Source: Nostoc sp. CENA543 (GTDB taxonomy: Bacteria > Cyanobacteriota > Cyanobacteriia > Cyanobacteriales > Nostocaceae). Taken from it: a DNA stretch of 64,000 nucleotides. The notes beneath the pieces were generated by a model, which searched no databases, was not told the DNA's origin, and was given only the letters and a program-made list of their open reading frames with translations. Positions 28,844-31,070 of this stretch are shown in pieces. Position 1 is the stretch's first letter; every line of letters begins with the position of its first letter. Location of the stretch: contig NZ_CP023278.1 in NCBI RefSeq assembly GCF_002896875.1, forward strand, positions 310,001-374,000. The letters are read 5' to 3'. A program made the position numbers and the translations under genes.

Positions 28844-29563
28844 TCAACCTTTGACACAAACAACTTGCTTGAGTGTGGCTACAACTTCTACTAAATCAGC
28901 TTGATTTTTCATGACTTCATCTATCGGCTTATAAGCACCAGGAATTTCATCTAAAACATCCTTATCTTTGCGACATTCTACACCCTTTGTTTGCTCAATT
29001 AAATCATCGAGGGTGTAGACATTTTTAGCTTTATTTCTTGACAATAAACGACCCGCACCATGAGAGCAAGAACAGAAACTATGTGCATTTCCTTTACCTT
29101 TGACAATGAAAGATTTTGCTCCCATTGAACCAGGAATAATTCCATAGTCTTCTGTATCAGCACGCACCGCACCTTTACGAGTGACATACACATCTTCGCC
29201 AAAATGTACTTCTTTTTCGGCGTAGTTGTGATGACAATTCACCTGTAATAAAGGTTTAGTTGGCTTTCCCCCCGCTAGATGTTTCTCAATGATGCGTTGG
29301 AAACGTGCCATCATCACATCACGGTTAAAACGTGCATATTCTTGGGCCCATTGTAAATCATTCCAATAGGCTTGAAATTCTAGTGTACCAGCGACAAAAT
29401 AAGCCAAATCAGGGTCAGGTAAATTATTATCTGCCATTTTTGCTAATTCTTTCGCTGTATTAATATGACACTGGGCAAGATTATTACCAATGTTCCGCGA
29501 ACCCGAATGTAACATCAGCCAAACTTGGTTCTCTGTATCTAGGCAGACTTCAATGAAGTGATT
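28844..29563 (-). CDS. rtcB: RNA-splicing ligase RtcB, exon 2 (C-terminal 239 residues)
   Basis: Begins AAT CAC TTC (Asn155-His156-Phe157 of the spliced protein) directly after the intron's terminal G at 29564. It carries the remaining RtcB catalytic residues: NHFIEV with the metal-binding His156, MLHSGSRNIGN (His173), NCHHNY (His265/266) and FCSCSHGAGR, whose His322 is the expected guanylated residue. An in-frame ATG at 29605 within the intron is an artefact of reading through the 3' splice site. The spliced protein would be 393 residues, close to E. coli RtcB (408). RtcB joins 2',3'-cyclic phosphate and 5'-OH RNA ends with GTP and Mn2+. Confidence 0.93.
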   Translation of the reverse strand, partial: NHFIEVCLDTENQVWLMLHSGSRNIGNNLAQCHINTAKELAKMADNNLPDPDLAYFVAGTLEFQAYWNDLQWAQEYARFNRDVMMARFQRIIEKHLAGGKPTKPLLQVNCHHNYAEKEVHFGEDVYVTRKGAVRADTEDYGIIPGSMGAKSFIVKGKGNAHSFCSCSHGAGRLLSRNKAKNVYTLDDLIEQTKGVECRKDKDVLDEIPGAYKPIDEVMKNQADLVEVVATLKQVVCVKG

Positions 29564-30372
29564 CAATTTGTTACTGATTGCTTGCTTAATTTGTTGAGTC
29601 TCCATAGTCTAAGTTCGATACTATTTCGACTTCTACTAAGCACTTTCATTGATAACTCAATCGAATGGGTAGTAATGAATTGATCTTCTTCAGGTGTCCA
29701 TAACTTTCTATTTTTCACCCGTTTCATATCATTAGGACGACTCCAACTTAGAACTTCTCTAGCTTTAATAAGTTTTCTAGATAAAGCTAGACAATTGTCA
29801 TAGTACAAATGTCTGACTAATGTTTGAGCATCTTCCTTGTAAACCACTATGTTGTAAACCCTATCTCTAGTGTTTCTAGTCGATGTCTTGGCTTGTCCTG
29901 TCATCTGGTTAATAAATTCTATATATCCAGTGGCAATATATGAACTAGATGTCACCAGAGATAAAAAGGGAAATCCCTTTGAGGTCAGTCCTAAAGATCC
30001 ATCTCCATCTATCAAACCTCGGAAATAGTCAATTTCGGAAAACTGACAATTTGGAAGTTTGATTAACTGTGATTTACTACCATTCGGTAAACCCCATAAT
30101 TCTAGATAATCTCGAAATTCCTTATTATAAACTCTCCAAATAACTGATTTATTACTGCTACTAAAGTTAGTTTTACGTACACGTTCAGTGATTGAAGAAT
30201 TATACGGTATGAGATTTTTGAACTCCCAAAGTATGTGTTCATCCTGCTTATTAATCTCTATACTTAATCGACCGCGATCGCGAGTATCGTTGTATAGATG
30301 ACCATCGCTTTGGATAAAGCCAAACAAGTAGGAGTAACAGGGATTTACAAGACTGATATTGTGAGATTCCAT
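29563..30372 (-). CDS. Intron-encoded LAGLIDADG homing endonuclease
   Basis: 269 residues. Two LAGLIDADG helices are visible, YLFGFIQSDG (residues 15-24) and YFRGLIDGDG (116-125), with the acidic residues intact, so it should act as a monomeric two-motif enzyme. The C-terminus (225-262, LWTPEEDQFITTHSIEL then LSRSRNSIELRLWRL) resembles a Myb/SANT or HTH DNA-binding add-on. It sits downstream of the P9 region of the group I intron. Its TGA stop uses the last two intron bases plus the first base of exon 2. The ATG at 30372 lies in the loop of a 10-bp hairpin and has no clear Shine-Dalgarno. It would cleave intronless rtcB and drive homing; still intact, so probably recently active. Confidence 0.9.
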   Translation of the reverse strand: MESHNISLVNPCYSYLFGFIQSDGHLYNDTRDRGRLSIEINKQDEHILWEFKNLIPYNSSITERVRKTNFSSSNKSVIWRVYNKEFRDYLELWGLPNGSKSQLIKLPNCQFSEIDYFRGLIDGDGSLGLTSKGFPFLSLVTSSSYIATGYIEFINQMTGQAKTSTRNTRDRVYNIVVYKEDAQTLVRHLYYDNCLALSRKLIKAREVLSWSRPNDMKRVKNRKLWTPEEDQFITTHSIELSMKVLSRSRNSIELRLWRLNKLSKQSVTN

Positions 30373-30608
30373 ATAATCACAATATCACACATGAAAGTCA
30401 CAATAGATCAAGTCATTTCTGCTTGATTCTATACCTTCCTTTTCGGTATAGTTCGGAGCACACCTTCATCCTAATTTATTCTAGGATGCCCAAGTCCCTC
30501 TGCTCTCTACGGGGCGTTTTACCGCTTCCCTCGGTATTAGCAATCTCAGCTTCCACCGATTTGGACGAGTTTTGATTACTGTATTACTACAGTAAGGGGC
30601 AATCTTTT
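29564..30608 (-). mobile_element. Group I intron in rtcB (1,045 bp)
   Basis: On the minus strand the first exon ends GGGGGT and the intron ends in G. Folding by eye: P1 exon GGGGU with GCCCC (30600-30596), U-G pair at the splice site; P2 30595-30576 with GUAA loop; P3 GUCC/GGAC (30566-30563, 30497-30494); P4 UCGGU/ACCGA (30559-30555, 30535-30531); P5 AGC/GCU; P6 GCG/CGC; P7 GAGCA/UGCUC (30505-30501, 30460-30456); P8 30488-30467 (7 bp); P9 30451-30429 (7 bp); P9.1 30427-30407. P10 pairs GAUU (30604-30601) with exon 2 AAUC. The S-type strand AAGGUGUGCUCC resembles the conserved group I element. Precise removal restores the rtcB frame; there are no intein features and exon 1 reads into a stop after ten codons. 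Confidence 0.93.
30355..30386 (-). promoter_or_regulatory. 10-bp hairpin enclosing the endonuclease start codon
   Basis: GATATTGTGA and TCACAATATC form a perfect stem; the 12-base loop contains the ATG at 30372-30370. This could limit translation from the precursor RNA, as described for some intron-encoded endonucleases of phage T4. The regulatory role is inference. Confidence 0.5.
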
Positions 30609-31070
30609 ACCCCCGCCTAGAGAACCAATTTGTTTCATTGCTTTAGTTTGTAAATCTTGCACACCACGGTGCAAGTCTTGAAACTCTCGCCAATGCTGCC
30701 AATTAGTGACAGTTTTTTCTATCTCTTTATTTTCATTAAAACCTGTGGGAATGGCCGCTTCAATATCGAGTCGAATTTTTTTGAGTTTTCCTTCTAATTT
30801 ATCACCTGTAAATGGTGTTTTGATTGCACACATACCACAGCCAACATCTACACCCACAGCAGCAGGAATAATGGCTTCTTTTGTAGCAATTACAGAACCA
30901 ACTAAAGCACCTTTTCCTAAGTGAACATCAGGCATTAATGCTACGTGTTTAAATACAAAAGGTAGGGATGCCACATTCTTAGCCATCTTGGTTTCTTCTG
31001 TACCCAAGGGGTGATTCGCCCAAGATAAAACAGGTGCTGGCGTATTAATTTCTAACTCTTCGTAGGGCAT
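30609..31070 (-). CDS. rtcB: RNA-splicing ligase RtcB, exon 1 (N-terminal 154 residues)
   Basis: Exactly 154 codons from the ATG at 31070 to the 5' splice site after GGT (Gly154). Contains MPDVHLGKGALVGSV and GVDVGCGM with metal ligands Asp75 and Cys78, in the same positions as E. coli RtcB. Exon 1 ends MKQIGSLGGG, which in intact RtcB is followed at once by NHFIE. Without splicing, translation adds KRLPLTVVIQ and stops, giving an inactive 164-residue product. Upstream there is a TTGACA promoter element. RtcB repairs and ligates RNA in the cytoplasm; no rtcA or archease gene is next to it. Confidence 0.94.

Follow-up and report, generated by a model that had tools for sequence, protein, structure and literature searches.

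The group I introns in the tRNA-Leu and LSU rRNA genes of cyanobacteria belong to the same catalytic class as the intron described here, but their hosts are structural RNAs. As for protein-coding hosts in cyanobacteria, the sections of the reviews available to us name the ribonucleotide reductase genes (PMC3984707; PMC12702839), and the view of the original prediction that group I introns are rare in cyanobacterial protein genes fits these accounts. The nrdJ (RIR) intron of Nostoc punctiforme PCC 73102 is likewise a group I intron that occupies a conserved motif of a protein gene in the Nostocaceae; the nrdJ-type introns encountered in the present analysis are assumed to represent the intron of Meng et al. 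2007, as it is described in the available part of a review (PMC12702839). A survey of the Bastillevirinae, the same phage subfamily that includes the carriers of the rtcB introns discussed below, reports, in the sections available, 45 introns in genes for DNA polymerase, terminase, thymidylate synthase and ribonucleotide reductase, with eight of the nine tested genes being spliced (Weglewska et al., 2025; PMC11878797); neither 'rtcB' nor 'ligase' appears in the main text of that paper. Finally, the enzyme encoded within the intron shares its family and two motifs with LAGLIDADG endonucleases such as PDB 2dch; unlike in enzymes of the 2dch type, its C-terminal segment is partly encoded by ribozyme sequence.

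Both the catalytic class and the mobile type of the element are ordinary, a group I intron with a LAGLIDADG gene being a kind already known. By contrast, our search, conducted mostly outside the subscription literature, recovered no published group I intron in rtcB, and within this scope the claim that no such case has been described holds. Neither the rtcB host, nor the lineage, nor its presence in both cyanobacteria and phages of Firmicutes was found in print, including the accessible portions of PMC3984707, PMC12702839, PMC5871332, PMC11878797 and PMC10272220. Thus, RtcB, an RNA-repair enzyme, would join the few bacterial proteins whose genes are known to contain group I introns.

So how does the present locus compare with these systems? 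The window, that is, the whole analysed stretch of 64,000 nucleotides from Nostoc sp. CENA543 (contig NZ_CP023278.1, positions 310,001 to 374,000), contains an interrupted rtcB gene on its minus strand. The insert is predicted, with a probability that we put at about 0.94, to be a mobile, self-splicing group I intron that carries a LAGLIDADG homing endonuclease gene. The original prediction had recognized a group I intron in rtcB, and this part stands; it had not noticed that the intron encodes a homing endonuclease, looks mobile and has relatives in phages. The features of the locus are as follows.

28844..29563 (-): rtcB exon 2, starting with NHFIEV; Pfam RtcB, E 2.7e-89
29563..30372 (-): putative LAGLIDADG homing endonuclease ORF, 269 aa; matches Pfam PF14528 and PDB 2dch
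29565-29563 (-): TGA stop codon of the endonuclease ORF, spanning the predicted 3' splice site
29564..29648 (-): predicted 3' RNA domain (P9.2a/b/c/d, P9.2 and the terminal G); 97.3% of cells paired
29564..30608 (-): group I intron, assigned by comparative analysis; 1,045 nt, phase 0
30391..30405 (-): predicted 5' strands of P9.2 and P9.2a; outermost P9.2 pair mismatched in the window
30407..30427 (-): predicted P9.1 with the conserved loop GCAGAAATG; loop motif in 29/29 cyanobacterial introns
30429..30618 (-): predicted ribozyme core P1-P9, the 5' strand of P1 being supplied by the final 10 nt of exon 1; RF00028, covariation, model R1
30576..30578 (-): first in-frame stop past exon 1 on unspliced RNA, at nt 31 of the intron
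30609..31070 (-): rtcB exon 1, 154 codons, ending in SLGGG; Pfam RtcB, E 4.3e-30

The identity of the host gene is clear from the matches of both exons to the Pfam RtcB family and from their alignment with a solved RtcB. The split between exon 1, ending in GGG, and exon 2, starting with NHFIEV, as well as the 1,045 bp insert at 29564-30608, had been placed correctly to the nucleotide, and joining at these sites produces a stop-free RtcB of 393 residues. The insertion point thus lies between the GGG and NHF codons. An alignment with the Pyrococcus RtcB, PH1602, in which positions were counted by hand, places N155, with which exon 2 begins, at residue 202 and the following residue at 203, which we take to be active-site residues of RtcB, with His203 as a metal ligand; in the same alignment, C78 of the window protein corresponds to residue 98.

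The exons are subject to strong purifying selection, with dN/dS of 0.03-0.07 in 6/6 comparisons with the window gene, and the joined exon segments (residues 79-393) are open and contain GGGNHF in 28/28 relatives; by this measure, the gene should be spliced. On unspliced RNA, the exon 1 frame stops at nt 28 or 31 of the intron in all 29 cyanobacterial introns. Could RtcB instead be produced as two separately translated fragments? The phage database records list the parts of rtcB as separate coding sequences, and phage 278BB001 is annotated as encoding an N terminus, an endonuclease and a C terminus; furthermore, exon 2 of the window gene is in frame with an ATG within the intron (at 29605), and TTG, a possible if weak start codon, ends the intron in 28/29 copies. 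However, an in-frame ATG precedes exon 2 in only 2/29 introns (those of the window and L054), the exon 1 frame is invariably cut short within the intron, the split falls inside a conserved motif, and the ribozyme structure is maintained with compensatory changes, all of which makes separate translation hardly probable. Taken together, the termination of exon 1 within the intron, the rarity of the in-frame ATG and the selection on the exons argue for joining at the RNA level.

The secondary structure of the insert allows a comparison with other group I introns. The fold from P1 to P9.1 with a U-G pair at the 5' splice site and a terminal G, which had been drawn by eye, is borne out by the alignment of relatives: the core, with 53 pairs in a P1-P9 structure written from the window, is paired in 99.4% of cells across 20 introns, a share that is biased towards the sequence from which the structure was drawn, the count of double-sided changes being less so. 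Such changes affect eight pairs, five of these in P2 and one each in P6, P7 and P9; none was seen among the 20 introns in P3, P4, P5 or P8, and any variation in P3, P4 and P8 is confined to one strand of the pair. The alignment (A1) omits duplicates and three introns with long P5 inserts (L011, L012 and L022), and two of its rows (L004 and L028) have no P9 end. In none of 500 shuffles was the paired share of the core or its number of double changes reached, and versions of the structure slid along the alignment pair in 37-47% of cells; one of the five covariation measures, that of further pair types, is ordinary, with 69/500 shuffles scoring as high. The window P1 is GGGGU:GCCCC, and the U.G pair at the 5' splice site is present in 20/20 aligned introns, as is an invariant G-C pair in P7 (columns 139/198) that presumably corresponds to the guanosine-binding pair G264-C311 of Tetrahymena.

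The 3' portion of the intron is also structured, and here the earlier drawing, which ended at P9.1, correctly included that helix and did not mention the branched P9.2 domain. The ORF lies between P9.1 and the last 85 nt of the intron, and its flanks pair with each other to form this domain, which the ORF splits. Its 30 pairs, picked by eye on the same alignments, are paired in 97.3% of cells over 23 introns, with 38 double-change cells, whereas 500 shuffles gave 12.3 on average and never more than 24; slid versions are paired in 22-44%. The intron ends in TG in 29/29 cases. The proposed P10 pairing of GAUU with AAUC exists in the window, along with the terminal G, but its full four pairs occur in only 14/29 introns, three pairs being present in 13/29 and two in 2/29.

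A scan with the Rfam models, the obvious check on such an assignment, gave a mixed answer. At the gathering score, the whole window yields only a tRNA and no intron match, whereas a scan of 1.6 kb under permissive filters places RF00028 at 30618-30429 over the whole length of the model (1-253) with E 1.2e-5; the score of 31 bits does not reach the curated cut-off of 50 bits, which is a threshold of the database rather than an attribute of the RNA itself. In the genome of the window, RF00028 is reported at a single place, which is another intron (G000:C1:4021469, 89.4 bits). Of the 28 related cyanobacterial loci, 18 were scanned, and none gave an Rfam group I match even at E 1; Rfam alone is therefore weak support, and the structure was for this reason tested by comparison. 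The rtcB introns thus make up a set of group I introns that the Rfam model does not report (18/18 tested). The assignment of the window insert to group I, confirmed at the level of sequence comparison, rests on covariation, identity of the site and selection, not on the Rfam score.

Would any other type of element account for the insert? Inteins do occur in rtcB of cyanobacteria, at Cys78, and one copy of the rtcB intron has itself been invaded by a group II intron. Nevertheless, the sole convincing Rfam match is to group I, the pairings that covary, including P7, are those of group I, and both the U.G pair and the terminal G are as expected of this class, so that a group II intron, an archaeal-type BHB intron or an intein can be practically discounted as the nature of the insert. 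An intein at the GGG|NHF site is specifically ruled out by in-frame stops within the insert.

The earlier remark that RtcB is known for inteins in archaea and other organisms applies to cyanobacteria too, where they occupy a different codon from that of the intron. In-frame inteins at Cys78 of RtcB in Nostocaceae (VGVDIGC...VFVHN|CGM) were observed at L040, L045, L060, L062, L064, L065, L074, L082, L084 and L088. The intein of L088 is shortened; that of L062 matches Pfam Intein_splicing (E 4.9e-20), with an HNH_3 match (E 8e-4) below the cut-off. In two genomes (G179 and G180), a Cys78 intein and the group I intron are found in a single rtcB gene.

The intron ORF encodes a putative LAGLIDADG endonuclease. 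Pfam PF14528 (LAGLIDADG_3) matches two stretches of the protein (E 1.2e-8), and the nearest solved sequence is PDB 2dch, a putative homing endonuclease (E 8.5e-5). Two LAGLIDADG-like motifs are discernible, and the final aspartate of each (D23 and D124) is invariant in 11/11 aligned proteins. An AlphaFold model built on 7 alignment rows is poor (mean pLDDT 48.5), with an order of helices and strands that by eye fits two LAGLIDADG repeats; the C-terminal segment shows matches to DNA-binding domains below the cut-off (PHB_acc_N, E 0.028; Myb, E 0.094). The ORF appears to be under purifying selection, with dN/dS of 0.10-0.13 in 5/5 comparisons. Its C-terminal codons double as the ribozyme 3' domain (P9.2), and codons 240-269 have a lower dS than codons 1-225 in 5/5 comparisons (for example, 0.32 vs 0.57 and 0.61 vs 1.37), an estimate that comes from the few sites of 30 codons and has no error bars. 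The end of this gene would thus be a compact case of overlapping constraint on protein and RNA structure. The TGA stop codon consists of the last two bases of the intron and the first base of exon 2, so that the endonuclease frame ends there only on unspliced RNA.

The state of this gene varies greatly among the 29 cyanobacterial introns: seven contain a full-length frame, one (L023) holds a broken copy, and 21 retain remnants or little of it, the smallest intron seen being a bare ribozyme of 235 nt. A separate oddity is the 411-nt intron of L033 (G167), in which the endonuclease remnant contains an extra insert between CAGGACTTACGCA and TGCGTAAGTCC. The decay of the endonuclease bears on the question of whether the ribozyme requires a protein helper, either a host factor or the LAGLIDADG protein acting as a maturase. 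Such a requirement has a precedent, given that four of the nine tested Bastillevirinae phage genes were spliced only in infected cells according to the available sections of the survey (PMC11878797). However, the 21 introns that have lost most of the endonuclease gene and the one with a broken copy are still flanked by open exons, which implies that there, at least, a protein from the intron itself is not needed. On balance, we regard dependence on a helper as unlikely, albeit with an appreciable chance of being correct.

The distribution of the intron among cyanobacteria was assessed with the endonuclease and with a model of the ribozyme. At E 1e-3, the endonuclease search of 217 genomes of the family gave 23 matches in 21 genomes, that of the window included, all at the rtcB site, and across 386 genomes of the phylum, 6/6 matches are at this site. 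Model R1, made from the P1-P9 core of 20 introns including that of the window, scores the window intron, one of its own members, at 235 bits. At E 1e-3, it has matches in 105/217 family genomes, other group I introns being among these. At or above 122.7 bits, a line chosen after the scores were known, there are 27 matches, the next score being 64.7 bits, and all 27 strong loci (L029-L055) are in rtcB at GGG|NHF in phase 0. In the sample of 386 genomes over the phylum, R1 scores at least 200 bits in nine, among them two carriers outside the family (G271 and G389), both of which have rtcB exon 1 in front of the intron. The carriers include Anabaena sp. 4-3, Nostoc sp. FACHB-152, the Kastovskya adunca MAG and Phormidium sp. 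LEGE 05292.

The introns of the nrdJ type (L056-L058, L091, L092, L094, L096, L098 and L099; host gene named by eye) align with the whole of the rtcB model, scoring 53-70 bits compared to 122-237 bits for the rtcB introns, but they differ in the host gene and in the site, which follows NPCG. In none of six nrdJ loci does the intron contain the P9.1 loop motif, one having it elsewhere on the other strand, and the two nrdJ loci scanned with Rfam (L091 and L096) have no match at E 0.01. Three further loci (L093, L095 and L097) contain other group I introns above the Rfam cut-off, at 56-71 bits; four loci bearing other group I introns were scanned for tRNAs, with none found.

Comparison with intronless relatives bears on the state of the host gene. 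The exact pattern of the uninterrupted site is present in 154/217 family genomes and in none of the 27 intron carriers, with the caveat that a diverged second rtcB in a carrier could escape the pattern; 36/217 genomes have neither a strong intron match nor the exact pattern. Given that the carriers show no match to the uninterrupted-site pattern and that their exons are intact and conserved, RtcB expression in these organisms should depend on splicing, in agreement with what had been proposed from the window. The opposite interpretation, that rtcB has become a pseudogene and that the insert is the leftover of a defunct intron, could draw on the 22/29 introns without a full-length endonuclease frame. 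It is nevertheless very improbable in view of the low dN/dS of the exons, the stop-free joined segments in every relative compared and the lack of a match to the uninterrupted-site pattern in 27/27 carriers, as well as the endonuclease frame of the window, which is open and apparently under purifying selection. The related strains thus provide a natural series, from the full intron through the remnant endonuclease and the 235-nt bare ribozyme to the empty site, that lends itself to the study of gain and loss.

Is the intron mobile? In a tree of 56 rtcB exon sequences, 29 with and 27 without the intron, at least 15 changes of intron state are required, 12 of these forced by well-supported branches; the tree does not distinguish gain from loss. 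It includes 27 of the 154 empty-site genomes and omits the paralogues L085 and L086 (32-41% identity), L088, where the exon 2 match ends early, and G389, in which exon 2 is not on the contig. As few changes as in the tree were obtained in 25/500 label shuffles (shuffled mean 18.9), so that the trait is close to scattered, and close sisters differ: L048 has the intron and L073 does not, and likewise for L053 and L064. The endonuclease (pS over codons 1-225) is less diverged than the exons in 19/21 pairs, equally so in one and more so in one. In comparisons with L027, from another family, pS is 0.65-0.85 for the exons and 0.44-0.63 for the endonuclease, a case that calls for care because L027 has an odd base composition and drives part of the transfer signal. 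Altogether, the scattered changes of state and an endonuclease that is mostly less diverged than its host gene make the rtcB intron look mobile.

A possible trace of co-conversion was sought in the flanks. Exon 1 ends in GGGGGT in 29/29 intron alleles vs 4/27 empty alleles, and the extent to which intron alleles are more alike than empty alleles is greatest over the 30 nt that precede the site (+0.125 and +0.067 identity), the excess after the site being at most +0.04. Since most of the excess lies just before the site, the requirement for P1 pairing alone may explain it.

The relatives of the intron in phages extend the comparison beyond cyanobacteria. A viral contig (IMGVR_UViG_3300017655_000071) encodes a different RtcB, with exon 1 67.6% identical to RtcB of Brevibacillus phage Jenst, and has an intron after the same GGG that scores 93 bits with the cyanobacterial model; its endonuclease can be followed over residues 6-123, up to the end of the contig, and is 51% identical there. 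Among the Bastillevirinae (Herelleviridae), five phages of Bacillus subtilis, namely BSP36, 278BB001, Goe17, Goe20 and Goe27, carry at the same rtcB codon an insert of 1,120 nt with an endonuclease that is 49-52% identical. Rfam scores these phage introns at 67-73 bits, and R1 detects only one of the five, at 12.9 bits; this near-blindness of R1 suggests that the phage core has diverged or has been replaced. The P9.1 loop GCAGAAATG is nevertheless shared by all 29 cyanobacterial introns, the viral contig and 5/5 phages. Three versions of P1 occur. The window and most cyanobacteria have GGGGGU/GCCCC, the viral contig has GGUGGU/GCCACC and the Bacillus phages have GGAGGU/GCCUCC, except that 278BB001 has GCCUUC with the pairing kept. 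Between cyanobacteria and phages, P1 and the exon codon thus change together. A rescan of viral contigs with the phage endonucleases added gave no match that was upheld by tblastn, a DNA search with the viral intron against phages gave none, and a DNA search of phages with the whole gene recovered diverged rtcB exons only, among the best 20 of 39 records. The insertion common to cyanobacteria and Bacillus phages makes the transfer of a site-specific intron across phyla directly testable.

The following scenario appears to accommodate these findings. In the pre-mRNA, the guide of the ribozyme would pair with GGGGU of exon 1 and a guanosine would be used to cut after the U; exon 1 would then be joined to exon 2 past the terminal G, restoring GGG-NHF and a working RtcB, as structure and selection suggest. 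The endonuclease would be translated from unspliced RNA, its stop codon borrowing the first base of exon 2, and would presumably cut intronless rtcB at the site, with repair copying the intron in. Lineages would subsequently shed the endonuclease and keep the ribozyme, in line with the remnants seen, and the intron might be lost or regained. Splicing, the cutting of the empty allele and any direction of transfer are, in this scenario, what we infer from comparative data. In Anabaena PCC 7120, rtcB (all3526) is repressed by TrcR, and antibiotic-induced translational stress relieves the repression, according to the available part of the report (PMC10272220), which suggests when splicing would matter.

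A far more speculative possibility is that selfish splicing elements have converged on rtcB repeatedly. The GGG|NHF lineage of intron and endonuclease would have moved between cyanobacterial chromosomes and phages of Firmicutes, while the intein at the Cys98 codon and a likely group I intron before Asp95 would strike a second conserved motif, in some cases within a single gene. RtcB is an enzyme that joins RNA ends, and in Anabaena it is translational stress that releases it; for this reason, it may act on its own cut or mis-spliced pre-mRNA, the intron being a feedback sensor of the demand for RNA repair. We consider this composite view a long shot.

Several minor observations concern the surroundings of the intron and its relatives. 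In phages Goe27 and Goe20 (L107 and L108, around 1050-1943), an apparent second intron interrupts rtcB between VGV and DIGCG; it gives sub-threshold Rfam group I matches of 26-30 bits and contains a 170-aa ORF that has no convincing Pfam family and is HNH-like by eye only. Free-standing relatives of the endonuclease follow immediately after an rtcB without interruption on a megaplasmid of Jeotgalibacillus malaysiensis (L114:2450-3253, 42.6% identity) and in an uncultured phage, LR745208 (L110:3483-4181, 46%), with no convincing group I match beside either of these. Both may be damaged, the former running past a stop and the latter being without a start at the end of the record; their position behind uninterrupted rtcB still supports this gene as the target. 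Lastly, in G389 (L100:3213-3353), the 5' end of a group II intron interrupts the rtcB group I intron within its endonuclease portion, at the point where the contig stops. This 5' end is one of 10 matches in the genome, and a related copy, 87% identical, has an RF00029 match and a 619-aa ORF that by eye resembles a reverse transcriptase.
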